Assembly: GCA_016756855.1 (NCBI GenBank)
Contig: JAESPD010000013.1
Coordinates: forward strand, 1-64,000
From: a gamma proteobacterium endosymbiont of Lamellibrachia anaximandri
GTDB lineage: Bacteria > Pseudomonadota > Gammaproteobacteria > Chromatiales > Chromatiaceae
Reading direction: 5' to 3'
DNA: 64,000 nucleotides
Positions 36,623 through 44,713 of the stretch are shown here, in pieces. The number at the start of each line of letters is the position of its first letter. Position 1 is the first letter of the stretch. The position numbers and the translations under genes are program-made. The notes below the pieces were generated by a model that ran no database searches, was not told where the DNA came from, and worked only from the letters and a program-made list of their open reading frames with translations.

Positions 36623-39600
36623 ATGCCGTCGCCGAACCCCGCTGATCGCAAGATCTATCACGTGTTCCTCGCCTCACCCGGCGACATGGCCGACGAGCGC
36701 CAGGCGGTGCGTGATTTTTTTAAGGCCTACAATCGGGATGCCGCTAATCCCAGGGGGTTTCAGTTCGATCTTATCGACGGGGAAAATCAGACCAACATCG
36801 GTGTTGGTCGCCCCCAGGCGCTGATTACCCAACAGACCCTAAAAAAATTCAGATTATCCCTTGCCCTGGTTATTGGCCTGCTGGGCCAGCGTTTCGGCAC
36901 ACCGACCGGCGATTTCAATTCGGGCACAGAGGAGGAGTTCACTGTCGTTATGAATATGCGTCGTGAACAAGGTGACTACCCCGAGATCAAATGGTTTTTC
37001 CGTAAAGGTTGGGGAAAAGACGGCCTACCGATGGATCCGGATGAACTACTTGAAGTCGCCAATCAAAAGCGCTTGGTCGATGCCTTCAAGGAGCGTGTGA
37101 AAGCAGAAAGTGATGTTCAACTCTTCACAGCCAATTTCGAAACCACCAACGACTTCCCCGCGCTGCTGGCGCGTGATCTCAATCAATGGCTCAACGATCC
37201 GGAAAAGCCCTGGAATCAGCAGGATGCCGGCCCCGGTGATCCCTATGACCCGCCGCCGGATGACCAACTGCTGGATGAGTGGCTGCGCATTCAGGCCGCC
37301 GACTGCGCCCGCCTGCCGCTGGAGGTGCTGGATGCCCGTCAGGGTCTGGATCAGCCAGCCGACCCTATTCGTCTGCCGGATATCTTCGTGCCCCTGAAGG
37401 CCGTTGCACCGCCGGAAAAGTGGCTGGAAGAGGACGAAGAGGTTCCAAACCACATTCGCGAAATGACCGAAGGCAAAAGTGGTAAGCCTGTGCCGGTTCT
37501 AGATCTGTTGGCCCGTGAGCCTCACTCGGTGTTGATCGGCGACCCAGGCGCAGGCAAGTCGGCCCTGGTCAATCAACTCGCCTGGCAGTTGTCGGCGAAT
37601 GATGCGGATGCCGAACTGCCCGATGTACTTCAGGGCGGGATTCCCGTGCGTATCGTTCTGCGACAGGTTGAGATCCCCGGCAACGCCAAGGTGGGCAGGG
37701 CCAAATGGCTGTGGCAGGCGCTGGAGACGGATATCCGTGACCTGCTGGAAGGGAGCGCCCAAGGCCGGGGCGAAAAAGCCCCGCAAGTAGTGAGCGCCCT
37801 GCGTCATCGGCTGGGCGAGAATCCTGGGGGAATGATCCTGCTCGACGGTCTCGACGAGGTGCCTGCCGCTGGTGAACGCCGCACCCATCTGCTGCAGGCG
37901 ATTCGTGCGCTGGTGGAGGAGCTGCCGGCCTCGACCGGTATCATGTTGACCGCCCGACCCTACGCATATACCGATCCCGGCTGGCGCCTGGCCGGTTTCA
38001 CCCCGCTCTTCCTCACCCCATTTGATGAAGGACAGCGAAGCCAGTTCATCCACGGCTGGTACCGGGCGGCGAAAACGCGCTTCGGCCTGCGAGAACAGGA
38101 TCTGAAGCTTCGCGTACCCGATATGCTGGAACGGGTGGAAAACCGTGAACACCTGCGGGAGCTGGCTCGCCGTCCCCTGCTGCTGACCCTCATTGCCACC
38201 CTGCACGCCAGCGGCGGCAGCCTGCCGGAGGATCGTGCTGAACTCTACCGCGACAGCGTCAACCTGCTGCTCTACCAGTGGCGGGCCAATCGCTGCTTTC
38301 GTAACAGCGATGGTCAGCCCCTGAGCCTGTCGGAACCCCTATTGCGTGAAAGCCTGCAGCAACTCGCCTGGTCGGCGCACAAGACCCAGCGTGAACAGCG
38401 CGACAGTAACGGTGTCGCCAATATCAGCCGCAACCAGTTGCTGGACGCCTTCGAACCCCTGCTGGCGACGTTAGGCCGGGACGACCTGCTGGCCTACCTG
38501 GAGCAGCACAGCGGCATCCTCATCAGCCGTGGCCGGGATCACTACGCCTTTCCTCATCGATCATTTCAGGAGTACCTGGCCATGGGCTGGCTCAGTTCCC
38601 GCACCGATGACGCCCTGAGCCGCGAGGTCTGCACCGACCCGATCTGGTGGCGGGAGACCTTCCTGCTGGCGGTCCTGGAGCAGCGCAAGAAGCCCCGCCC
38701 CGCCATCGGCTACATCGAGGATATGCTGGAGACCGCTGAAGCGGCGACGGCAACCGTTCGCCACCAAGTCTCGGTATTGGCCGGTCTGAGCCTGATGGAA
38801 CTGGGGCTGACCGGGATGGACGACACCGGATTTTCCCGTCAGCGTATTAAGATTCGCAGCTGTATTGTCGAACTCATCGAAGATCCCACCGCTTTGACAA
38901 TCGAGGAGCGGGCCGAGGCGGGGAGGGTGCTGGGTGGCATCGGAGATCCACGCCCCGGGGTCGGGCTGGATGAAAATGGGTTACCTGATATTGAGTGGTG
39001 TGAGATTCCCGCTGCCGATGAAGTCAGCCTGGAAGACGATGCAGGTACTTTCCCTGTCGAACACTTTTACCTGGCCAGTTATCCGGTTACCAACGCTCAG
39101 TTCCAGACCTTTATCGATGATGACAAGGGATATCAAAACCGCGAATGGTGGGTGAAACTGGATGAGAAGCCAGATACACCTGAAATGCCCAGTTGGAGCG
39201 AACCCAATCATCCTCGGGAGACAGTCTCCTGGTACGAGGCGATGGCCTTCTGCGCCTGGCTCTCCGGCCGACTGGGATACACGGTGAGTCTGCCGACTGA
39301 GTGGCAGTGGCAGCAGGCGGCGAGCAGCGGCAATGCGAGACAGGACTACCCCTGGGGTGAAGAATACGAAACCGGCCGGGCCAATATTAATGAGACTGTT
39401 GGAGGTGCGGACTCTCACTATCTGCGCCGAACCACGGCTGTGGGACTCTATCCGCAAGGTAATTCTGCGCAAGAGGTCTCGGATCTTGCGGGAAACGTCT
39501 TGGAGTGGTGTCTGAACGAGTATGGCACTCCAGCCAACACCCAGGCCAGTGGCACAGCAAGATGCGTGTTGCGCGGCGGGTCCTGGGTCGACTGTCAAGA

Positions 39601-39700
39601 CTACGCCCGTGCGTCGCTCCGCAACTACCACGCGCCGGACAGCCGTGACCTCAGTCTGGGTTTTCGGTTGAGTTGTTCGTCCCCCATCGTGAAAGACTGA
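36623..39700 (+). CDS. DGR target protein 1: DUF4062-like N-terminus, NACHT/STAND-type NTPase, C-terminal FGE-sulfatase/C-type-lectin fold containing VR1
   Basis: IYHVFLASPGDMADERQAVRDFF; Walker A GDPGAGKSALVNQLAW; Walker B GMILLDGLDEVP; FGE-like FYLASYPVTNAQFQTFI...VSWYEAMAFCAWLSGRLGYTVSLPTEWQWQQAAS...VLRGGSW...LGFRLSCSS. Confidence 0.92.
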   Translation: MPSPNPADRKIYHVFLASPGDMADERQAVRDFFKAYNRDAANPRGFQFDLIDGENQTNIGVGRPQALITQQTLKKFRLSLALVIGLLGQRFGTPTGDFNSGTEEEFTVVMNMRREQGDYPEIKWFFRKGWGKDGLPMDPDELLEVANQKRLVDAFKERVKAESDVQLFTANFETTNDFPALLARDLNQWLNDPEKPWNQQDAGPGDPYDPPPDDQLLDEWLRIQAADCARLPLEVLDARQGLDQPADPIRLPDIFVPLKAVAPPEKWLEEDEEVPNHIREMTEGKSGKPVPVLDLLAREPHSVLIGDPGAGKSALVNQLAWQLSANDADAELPDVLQGGIPVRIVLRQVEIPGNAKVGRAKWLWQALETDIRDLLEGSAQGRGEKAPQVVSALRHRLGENPGGMILLDGLDEVPAAGERRTHLLQAIRALVEELPASTGIMLTARPYAYTDPGWRLAGFTPLFLTPFDEGQRSQFIHGWYRAAKTRFGLREQDLKLRVPDMLERVENREHLRELARRPLLLTLIATLHASGGSLPEDRAELYRDSVNLLLYQWRANRCFRNSDGQPLSLSEPLLRESLQQLAWSAHKTQREQRDSNGVANISRNQLLDAFEPLLATLGRDDLLAYLEQHSGILISRGRDHYAFPHRSFQEYLAMGWLSSRTDDALSREVCTDPIWWRETFLLAVLEQRKKPRPAIGYIEDMLETAEAATATVRHQVSVLAGLSLMELGLTGMDDTGFSRQRIKIRSCIVELIEDPTALTIEERAEAGRVLGGIGDPRPGVGLDENGLPDIEWCEIPAADEVSLEDDAGTFPVEHFYLASYPVTNAQFQTFIDDDKGYQNREWWVKLDEKPDTPEMPSWSEPNHPRETVSWYEAMAFCAWLSGRLGYTVSLPTEWQWQQAASSGNARQDYPWGEEYETGRANINETVGGADSHYLRRTTAVGLYPQGNSAQEVSDLAGNVLEWCLNEYGTPANTQASGTARCVLRGGSWVDCQDYARASLRNYHAPDSRDLSLGFRLSCSSPIVKD
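39564..39683 (+). other. DGR variable repeat VR1
   Basis: 120-bp match to TR; hand alignment gives 15 substitutions, all at TR adenines; invariant flanks GCGTGTTGCGCGGCGGGTCCTGG and CTGGGTTTTCGGTTGAGTTGTTCGTCCC. Confidence 0.95.
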
Positions 39701-44600: not shown

Positions 44601-44713
44601 CAGTGGTGATTGTTCAGCCGATCGATGACTTCAAAGGCGGCCTTGCGCTCCTCTTCCACATCACAGGGCGAGCCAACGAAGATGCGGATGGTCGATGTTA
44701 CTTCTTTTTTCAT
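41672..44713 (-). CDS. DGR target protein 2: DUF4062-like N-terminus, NACHT/STAND-type NTPase, C-terminal FGE/C-type-lectin fold containing VR2
   Basis: TIRIFVGSPCDVEEERKAAFEVIDRL; Walker A GAPGRGKTTFCNWVCW; Walker B NCLLIIDGFDEVPPSRE; FGE tail FHLSRYPVTNAQFQAFIDDDKGYKNPEWW...[39 protein letters not shown]. Confidence 0.92.
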   Translation of the reverse strand: MKKEVTSTIRIFVGSPCDVEEERKAAFEVIDRLNNHHWRPRNITVKGYGWDNTHYPKLTTNSPQTDIETSLPKMAEYDICIFILCHRLGTPLDESFDPLDDEGRQPTGTEYEFYGALAAETPPQTLIYRRNQDFSLKPGMTTKEKREAFEQLELVDAFIEKNTKDGNTFIGNYHQLKISDNFKLRVEQDLTELVNRLSNGTPQPDNPDPEQPASIPTSYLNWLRHKASDITLLGLDNKEAHNVRLPQVYVPAITPTPAAEGEEKKAPWEVDREGHDLLLTRLNQDSLYLPGAPGRGKTTFCNWVCWVVASSTIPADDHELATEYREELPQDLLGRLPILCRLREFWGHMTCQADNGDWTRAQLETALCDWLDKKKPDGLTSALFLEHLKQGNCLLIIDGFDEVPPSREKDGHIEYPRAALLSGLKKALPHWIETGNRILLTSRPYGLSPGERQGLGLAESELSALTGDLQRLFVQRWFHAADREKGTIKADGLLQQLDGRPDLNEFRTNPMLLTALCVKYDEGSRLPKDIHDLYSAVINQVLHNRYLDRAHEVAKVRRRLGVIAWEMHSGDLAGKQRSVPDAEIHEEEIEQVLIDYARSKPHDEGGEDEAADKREDLLSRSGLLLPTENNQAEFYHLSFQDFLAAERFVRSGQSVEELVASHAGTSQWRQTLLFLFARLTSREDLDTALERFSLLGDFLDRDSLRQNPRPAILLGDCLEIAQARGEIGEWGMLYRQACYTALEVVESPEHREALFRALGATGLDDRPGVGLDENGLPDIAWQDIPAGGVTLSGNAGSFPGEAFHLSRYPVTNAQFQAFIDDDKGYKNPEWWADLEVEPDKPLSSQWKEDNHPRERVSWYEAMAFCAWLSHRLGYPVSLPTEWQWQQAATSGNPGQDYPWGKKYKSGRANIDETSGGAGSHYLRRTTAVGIYLQGNSVQGVSDLAGNVWEWCLNEIDTPANTQASGTANRVLRGGSWVGGLDFARASFRNHSGPDHRDYDLGFRLSCSSPIMKD
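41689..41808 (-). other. DGR variable repeat VR2
   Basis: 120-bp match to TR; hand alignment gives 19 substitutions, 18 at TR adenines and one C-to-T (GAC to GAT). Confidence 0.95.

Follow-up and report, generated by a model that had tools for sequence, protein, structure and literature searches.

A diversity-generating retroelement with two NACHT/C-type lectin target genes in a gammaproteobacterial genome associated with Lamellibrachia

During our analysis of a 64,000-nucleotide stretch of contig JAESPD010000013.1 (positions 1 to 64,000, referred to as the window), assigned to a gamma proteobacterium endosymbiont of Lamellibrachia anaximandri, we found that the region from 36.6 to 44.7 kb constitutes a complete cellular diversity-generating retroelement (DGR), comprising a reverse transcriptase (RT), Avd, a template repeat (TR), two variable repeats (VRs) and target-site hairpins. 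Both of its target proteins begin with an alpha/beta domain of the DUF4062 type, continue with a NACHT domain whose Walker motifs are intact and then a helical region, and end in a C-type lectin (CLec) domain of the formylglycine-generating enzyme (FGE) type that carries the VR at its terminus. The VRs depart from the TR almost exclusively at template adenines, and related proteins differ at these same positions. We consider it probable that this single element varies the C-terminal sensors of two cytoplasmic receptors resembling NLRs (STAND/NACHT), which would act as NADases in abortive phage defence.

Organisation of the retroelement

An earlier sequence-only reading of this DNA had proposed two target genes, and both are open reading frames at the places it gave. 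The components of the cassette are listed below.

36623..39700, plus strand: target 1, 1025 aa; DUF4062-like domain (aa 14-107), NACHT (302-482), helical region, FGE-type CLec (809-1016); key residues are the putative NADase Glu E105, Walker A K312 and Walker B D411
39565..39690, plus strand: VR1, at the 3' end of target 1; 126-nt core, altered at 16/31 TR adenines and 1/95 other positions
39746..39765, plus strand: target-site hairpin after VR1; GATA (GRNA) loop, stem with one internal mismatch
39788..40852, minus strand: DGR reverse transcriptase, 354 aa from the ATG at 40852; motifs YVDD (aa 233) and LPIGNLTSQ
40858..41211, plus strand: Avd, 117 aa; matches bAvd PF22296 (4e-16, above cut-off) and NF033474 (3e-20)
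41215..41255, plus strand: putative intrinsic terminator directly 3' of avd; 10-bp GC stem followed by T6, recognised by eye as its loop exceeds the limit of the scanner
41376..41501, minus strand: TR, 126 nt with 31 adenines
41608..41625, minus strand: target-site hairpin after VR2; 7-bp stem CCGCCGC/GCGGCGG, GATA loop
41682..41807, minus strand: VR2, at the 3' end of target 2; altered at 19/31 TR adenines and 3/95 other positions
41672..44713, minus strand: target 2, 1013 aa from the ATG at 44713; N-terminus modelled as TIR/flavodoxin-like, with E112, followed by NACHT and FGE-type CLec

Target 2, the TR and the RT gene lie on the minus strand and target 1 and avd on the plus strand, so that the two targets are convergent, with the cassette between them, and avd is divergent from the RT gene, with 5 nt separating the two start codons. 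The RT contains both the DGR-type SQ motif and the catalytic YxDD, and Avd scores 72.5 bits against NF033474, for which the cut-off is 80. An alternative, longer frame of target 2 begins at a TTG and extends up to 44851. A promoter scan returned 3 sites against 3.5 expected. Searching the genome revealed no further TR and no remote VR; four more RT matches, at 26-29% identity, are presumably of other RT types.

Adenine-directed diversification

Comparison of the TR with VR1 gives 17 mismatches, 16 of them at TR adenines (Fisher p 6e-11), and comparison with VR2 gives 22, of which 19 are at TR adenines (Fisher p 1e-11); the two VRs differ from each other at 19 positions, 17 again corresponding to adenines of the template. 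As the sequence-only reading had it, the VR occupies the C-terminal, putative sensor end of the targets. It forms approximately the last 41 residues of each. In target 1 it covers residues 982-1022, and three constant residues then complete the protein. Sixteen codons can vary, which corresponds to about 10^15.6 possible tips. One adenine difference is fixed in both VRs (SSHI in the TR, SSPI in the VRs), as expected of a marker of the IMH*/IMH (initiation of mutagenic homing) type, and the same H/P difference between TR and VR is seen again in cassettes of other genera.

Homing of the BPP-1 DGR requires a target-site hairpin with a stem of 7-10 bp and a GRNA loop (PMC3240598). Hairpins with stems of 7-8 bp and GATA loops follow both VRs here, at a distance of approximately 56 nt that is longer than the 4-34 bp in the literature (PMC3240598), while no such GATA-loop hairpin is present downstream of the TR.

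The closest named homolog of target 1, a protein (P0001) whose source is given as “gamma proteobacterium endosymbiont of Lamellib...”, carries only 4 substitutions in the 973 residues ahead of the VR. Its VR is out of frame because a run of C is longer by 2 bases, which may be an assembly error; 6 certain base differences from VR1 all fall at TR adenines, compared with 0/76 at other bases (p 2.5e-4), the bases having been back-constrained from the frame-shifted peptide of a metagenome-assembled genome (MAG) rather than read from DNA. A second protein (P0002, 89% identical) differs at 10/19 variable codons and at 0/22 others. One genome of the same genus (G003) has a TR, adjoining target 2, that is identical to the window TR at 124/126 positions with no adenine altered, yet the VR of its target 2 and VR2 disagree at 24/31 adenines and 4/95 other bases (p 1e-15). 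These comparisons with P0001 and G003 show that the DGR has been recently active. A comparable pair, P0137 and P0138 (the latter named “Candidatus Methylumidiphilus”), is identical over 983 aa and shares only 25/40 VR residues. As far as the literature searched shows, such near-isogenic VR differences are new for these proteins.

Domain architecture of the target proteins

The domain order that the sequence-only reading had assigned to both targets finds support in family searches, in a fold model of high confidence and in genome comparisons. Pfam searches gave FGE-sulfatase matches of 5e-39 (target 1) and 9e-41 (target 2) and NACHT matches of 1.8e-8 and 4.4e-9 respectively, all above cut-off; the DUF4062 domain that had also been named fell below its cut-off in target 1 and found no match in target 2. 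The Walker A and B motifs quoted previously were located in both proteins, GDPGAGKS at aa 306 and LLDGLDEVP at aa 406 in target 1, and GAPGRGKT at aa 291 and IIDGFDEVP at aa 396 in target 2. A partial match to the antiphage NACHT protein EruA (NCBIfam) was also obtained. The targets combine a central STAND NTPase with a C-terminal CLec that contains the VR, in the effector-NACHT-sensor order of Antiviral STAND (Avs) and bNACHT proteins.

An AlphaFold2 model of target 1, built from 43 sequences, has a predicted local distance difference test score (pLDDT) of 84. Its matches in the PDB include NOD2 and NLRP3 (both 3e-10) for the NACHT domain and TvpA, the variable protein of a Treponema DGR (2y3c, 5e-9), as well as structures of ToxD, FGE and EgtB, in agreement with the CLec fold that had been anticipated. 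The ToxD, FGE, EgtB and Treponema matches were assigned to the C-terminus by sequence searches. Within the VR, alignment entropy averages 2.96 bits at variable codons and 1.00 bit at the intervening scaffold codons (p 3e-7), column entropy serving as a proxy for surface exposure. Near-invariant scaffold residues (RGGSW, R1000, P1005 and GFR) are interspersed among the variable codons, the pattern expected of a binding surface that tolerates change on a CLec scaffold.

The targets had been described as intracellular, and a Kyte-Doolittle hydropathy scan (not SignalP) bears this out, revealing neither a signal peptide nor a transmembrane segment; the highest 19-residue mean is 0.24 near the N-terminus and about 1.0 over the whole protein. 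We also observed that the CLec regions of the two genes (39014-39768 and 41604-42358 in the window) share 72-83% DNA identity, whereas the N-terminal parts have diverged much further, a pattern suggestive of gene conversion or of a recent domain duplication extending past the VR.

The N-terminal domain as a putative effector

DUF4062 has been described in a 2026 preprint as a TIR-like NADase domain with a catalytic Glu that functions in antiphage defence, and it adjoins NACHT in human TEP1, NWD1, NWD2 and NPHP3 (PMC13174449). The family is matched by 28/43 of the aligned homologs. A Glu within the motif G-T-E-x-E-F is conserved in 41 of 43 proteins for target 1 (E105) and in 33 of 33 for target 2 (E112); judged from this motif, unaligned, these residues would be equivalent to E97 of KpSwz. 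The N-terminus of target 2 is predicted (pLDDT 84) to form five strands alternating with helices, and the PADLOC candidate PDC-S60 matches the N-termini of the two targets at 5e-18 and 3.5e-9.

In homologs built on the same NACHT-CLec or CLec scaffold, the N-terminal position is occupied by TIR_2, SIR2_2, Metallophos or Trypsin_2, and relatives of the cassette contain either genes for SEFIR/TIR-CLec proteins or a TIR/DUF4062 gene adjacent to genes for NACHT and FGE. Because relatives exchange domains at this position, we read the N-terminal slot as an exchangeable effector position. As far as the literature searched shows, both a DUF4062 effector on DGR targets and this series of effector swaps are new. 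In the cassette of one relative (G219, locus L076, 6592-10518), in which avd is also inverted, the second target is represented by three adjacent open reading frames (TIR/DUF4062, NACHT and FGE), which are either the pieces of a disrupted fusion gene or a form of the same receptor encoded by three genes.

A reverse transcriptase subclade with inverted avd

Phylogenetic analysis of 17 RTs places the window RT in a monophyletic group with those of G011, G243 and G219 (support 100/99), to which a degraded example (G010) can be added. Throughout this subclade Avd faces away from the RT, the TR is found on the RT strand past Avd, and a CLec target converges on the RT wherever the contig reaches far enough past the RT end. 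In contrast, ten other gammaproteobacterial cassettes have Avd just upstream of the RT and on the same strand. The nearest outgroup RT (51%) is found in a Chloroflexota groundwater MAG (L013, 5471-7645), where a CLec target precedes the RT and Avd follows it on the same strand.

In the window the RT would be read from the target 2/TR transcript through antisense avd, and avd by transcription that enters from the target 1 side and crosses the RT gene in antisense. A survey of 948 DGRs classed cassettes by the order and orientation of TR, VR and RT only (PMC6642488), hence inverted avd may have gone uncounted. Within the literature that we searched the inverted-avd subclade appears to be new, and it raises the specific issue of how expression of RT and Avd is coordinated.

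Decay in relatives and gene neighbourhood

Copies in other genomes of the genus are broken or partial. One (G005) retains a broken target 1 and a 3' fragment of the RT; G003 has target 2, interrupted by a stop, and the TR, with RT, Avd and target 1 not found in that genome; in G001 and G002 target 2 contains stops or is cut short. When target 2 was searched for in 387 genomes of the class and 399 of the phylum, G243 was the sole genome apart from the source genome to reach E <= 1e-70. Gain and loss of the system are rapid, which is the norm among defence genes.

A block of genes near the DGR encodes an astacin-like protease (32155-33282, which also matches NCBIfam “beta-glucuronidase AbsR1” at 1e-108, below cut-off), a TIR protein (33409-34392) and an eCIS-core (DUF4157) protein with HExxH-like motifs (34536-36413). 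G005 and G003, in the latter of which the eCIS gene is duplicated, retain the block next to their DGR remnants. Its genes may represent cargo of an injection system or serve in host interaction. We rejected the TIR and eCIS-core genes as dedicated effectors of the cassette. The TIR gene is intact in all six genomes of the genus (90-97% identity), including those in which the DGR is decayed or absent, and does not lie beside the target remnant of G001; as the block occurs irrespective of whether the DGR is intact, we treat it as a mere neighbour. On the other side, adjoining target 2, an open reading frame (45515-48811) encodes a 1098-aa protein with PD40 beta-propeller repeats (a 174-nt DNA repeat in at least 6 copies) and DUF11 domains. 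Convergent, tail-to-tail pairs of CLec-bearing genes with no RT match between them occur in G001 (L059, 6950-8629) and G005 (L060, 9076-10633), and are probably old DGR targets that have lost their cassette, or targets served in trans.

Comparison with known systems

DGR-linked conflict systems with FGE/CLec domains (PMC7159879) and DGR targets that combine NACHT or nSTAND1 with CLec, proposed to be antigen sensors (PMC10907252), have been published. The sequence-only reading had correctly stated that such diversified NTPase conflict proteins are known, and since DGR-diversified NACHT sensors appeared in publications between 2020 and 2024 the class is not new. The closest parallel is provided by the clade 5D STAND sensors (Thiohalocapsa PB-PSB1 DGR 3 and 6; PMC10907252), where likewise one DGR serves two targets, mostly predicted to be cytoplasmic, with central NACHT or nSTAND1 and a C-terminal CLec/FGE domain bearing the VR; this likeness is one of target layout. 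Unlike these sensors, the targets described here have a DUF4062-like N-terminal domain, which is absent from the text of PMC10907252, avd is inverted, and no dedicated partner, be it an adapter domain or a peptidase gene, was identified. The clade 5D host forms aggregates, whereas the present organism is probably symbiotic, to judge from names only.

The DUF4062 NADases Swarozyc and TEP1 (PMC13174449) share with the targets a DUF4062-like domain with a conserved Glu. Swarozyc possesses a helix-turn-helix (HTH)/winged auxiliary sensor, whereas in our targets, which gave no Pfam match to this portal-sensing domain, NACHT and CLec follow the N-terminal domain; DGRs are not mentioned in PMC13174449. 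Avs and bNACHT proteins have the same layout of effector, STAND NTPase and C-terminal sensor, but their sensors (tetratricopeptide repeats and others) are fixed, in contrast to a tip that is hypermutated by a retroelement. The BPP-1 DGR (mtd-avd-TR-brt) resembles the present cassette in having the TR on the RT strand, an IMH-like fixed TR/VR difference, a GRNA-loop hairpin after the VR, and Avd. It differs in that avd is here on the opposite strand, there are two targets, one of them convergent with the RT, and the element is cellular rather than carried by a phage.

Proposed function and alternatives

In the mechanism that we favour, retrohoming would provide the population with a spread of receptor specificities before infection. 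The CLec tip would bind a varying ligand, most likely a phage component, upon which the NACHT domains may oligomerise and bring the N-terminal TIR-like DUF4062 domains together; these would hydrolyse NAD+, so that the infected cell stops or dies and its clonal neighbours are protected. Several observations weigh against this proposal. The DUF4062 score of target 1 is 20.5 bits against a cut-off of 24.7, and Foldseek searches with the target 2 N-terminus returned generic flavodoxin-like top matches with low TM scores that did not single out TIR. The VR changes of P0001 derive from a peptide, and the decayed or partial state of the copies in other genomes of the genus implies that the system is dispensable on that time scale.

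It is possible, though rather unlikely, that the receptors respond to cues other than phage, such as kin and non-kin cells, host-derived molecules in an animal or conjugating elements, and that the cell responds or dies as a means of discrimination. The naming of P0001 as a Lamellibrachia endosymbiont protein makes an animal-associated life plausible, and the variety of N-terminal enzymes among relatives is also compatible with this alternative, but the best-documented role of NACHT scaffolds with DUF4062, TIR or SIR2 effectors is antiphage defence (PMC13174449; PMC10907252). We think it quite improbable that the DGR still feeds diversity into targets that are dying remnants with no current function. 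The broken or partial copies in G005, G003, G001 and G002 and the mismatch in the hairpin stem of target 1 would fit such a state; however, every component is intact in this genome, distant homologs retain the NACHT motifs and the Glu with little or no variation, and intact full-length orthologs exist at 89% and 83% identity. It is highly unlikely that the targets are surface or secreted adhesins diversified for binding to a host or surface, like the DGR targets of Legionella and Treponema, as they share with TvpA the CLec fold but combine the lack of a visible signal peptide or transmembrane segment with a 1000-residue ATPase scaffold and an effector. A catalytic FGE/EgtB-type enzyme is scarcely credible, despite the strong FGE-sulfatase score and homologs named “SUMF1/EgtB/PvdO family nonheme iron enzyme”, since all NCBIfam enzyme equivalogs score far under cut-off and the DGR randomises the C-terminal end, which an active site would not tolerate.

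The favoured reading, of two diversified cytoplasmic receptors in abortive phage defence, joins the DGR-diversified NACHT sensors, for which the effector is often unassigned, with DUF4062 as a TIR-like NADase, and the joint prediction is testable, with a diversified tip as input and NAD+ loss as output. More speculatively, and with considerable doubt, a chemosynthetic symbiont that is near-clonal in its host may use a retroelement to build a receptor repertoire in anticipation, with a TIR-like NADase as its output, a bacterial form of variable-receptor immunity, in which RT and Avd would arise from opposed and mutually antisense transcripts so that diversification takes place only when both target loci are transcribed. 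Tubeworm symbionts have been described as basically a monoculture in their host, in which phage infection can be fatal (PMC12045306); such a monoculture is a setting in which diversified phage defence would pay. Near-identical strains that differ mainly in the VR offer a practical case for asking whether DGRs give anticipatory immunity in bacteria.

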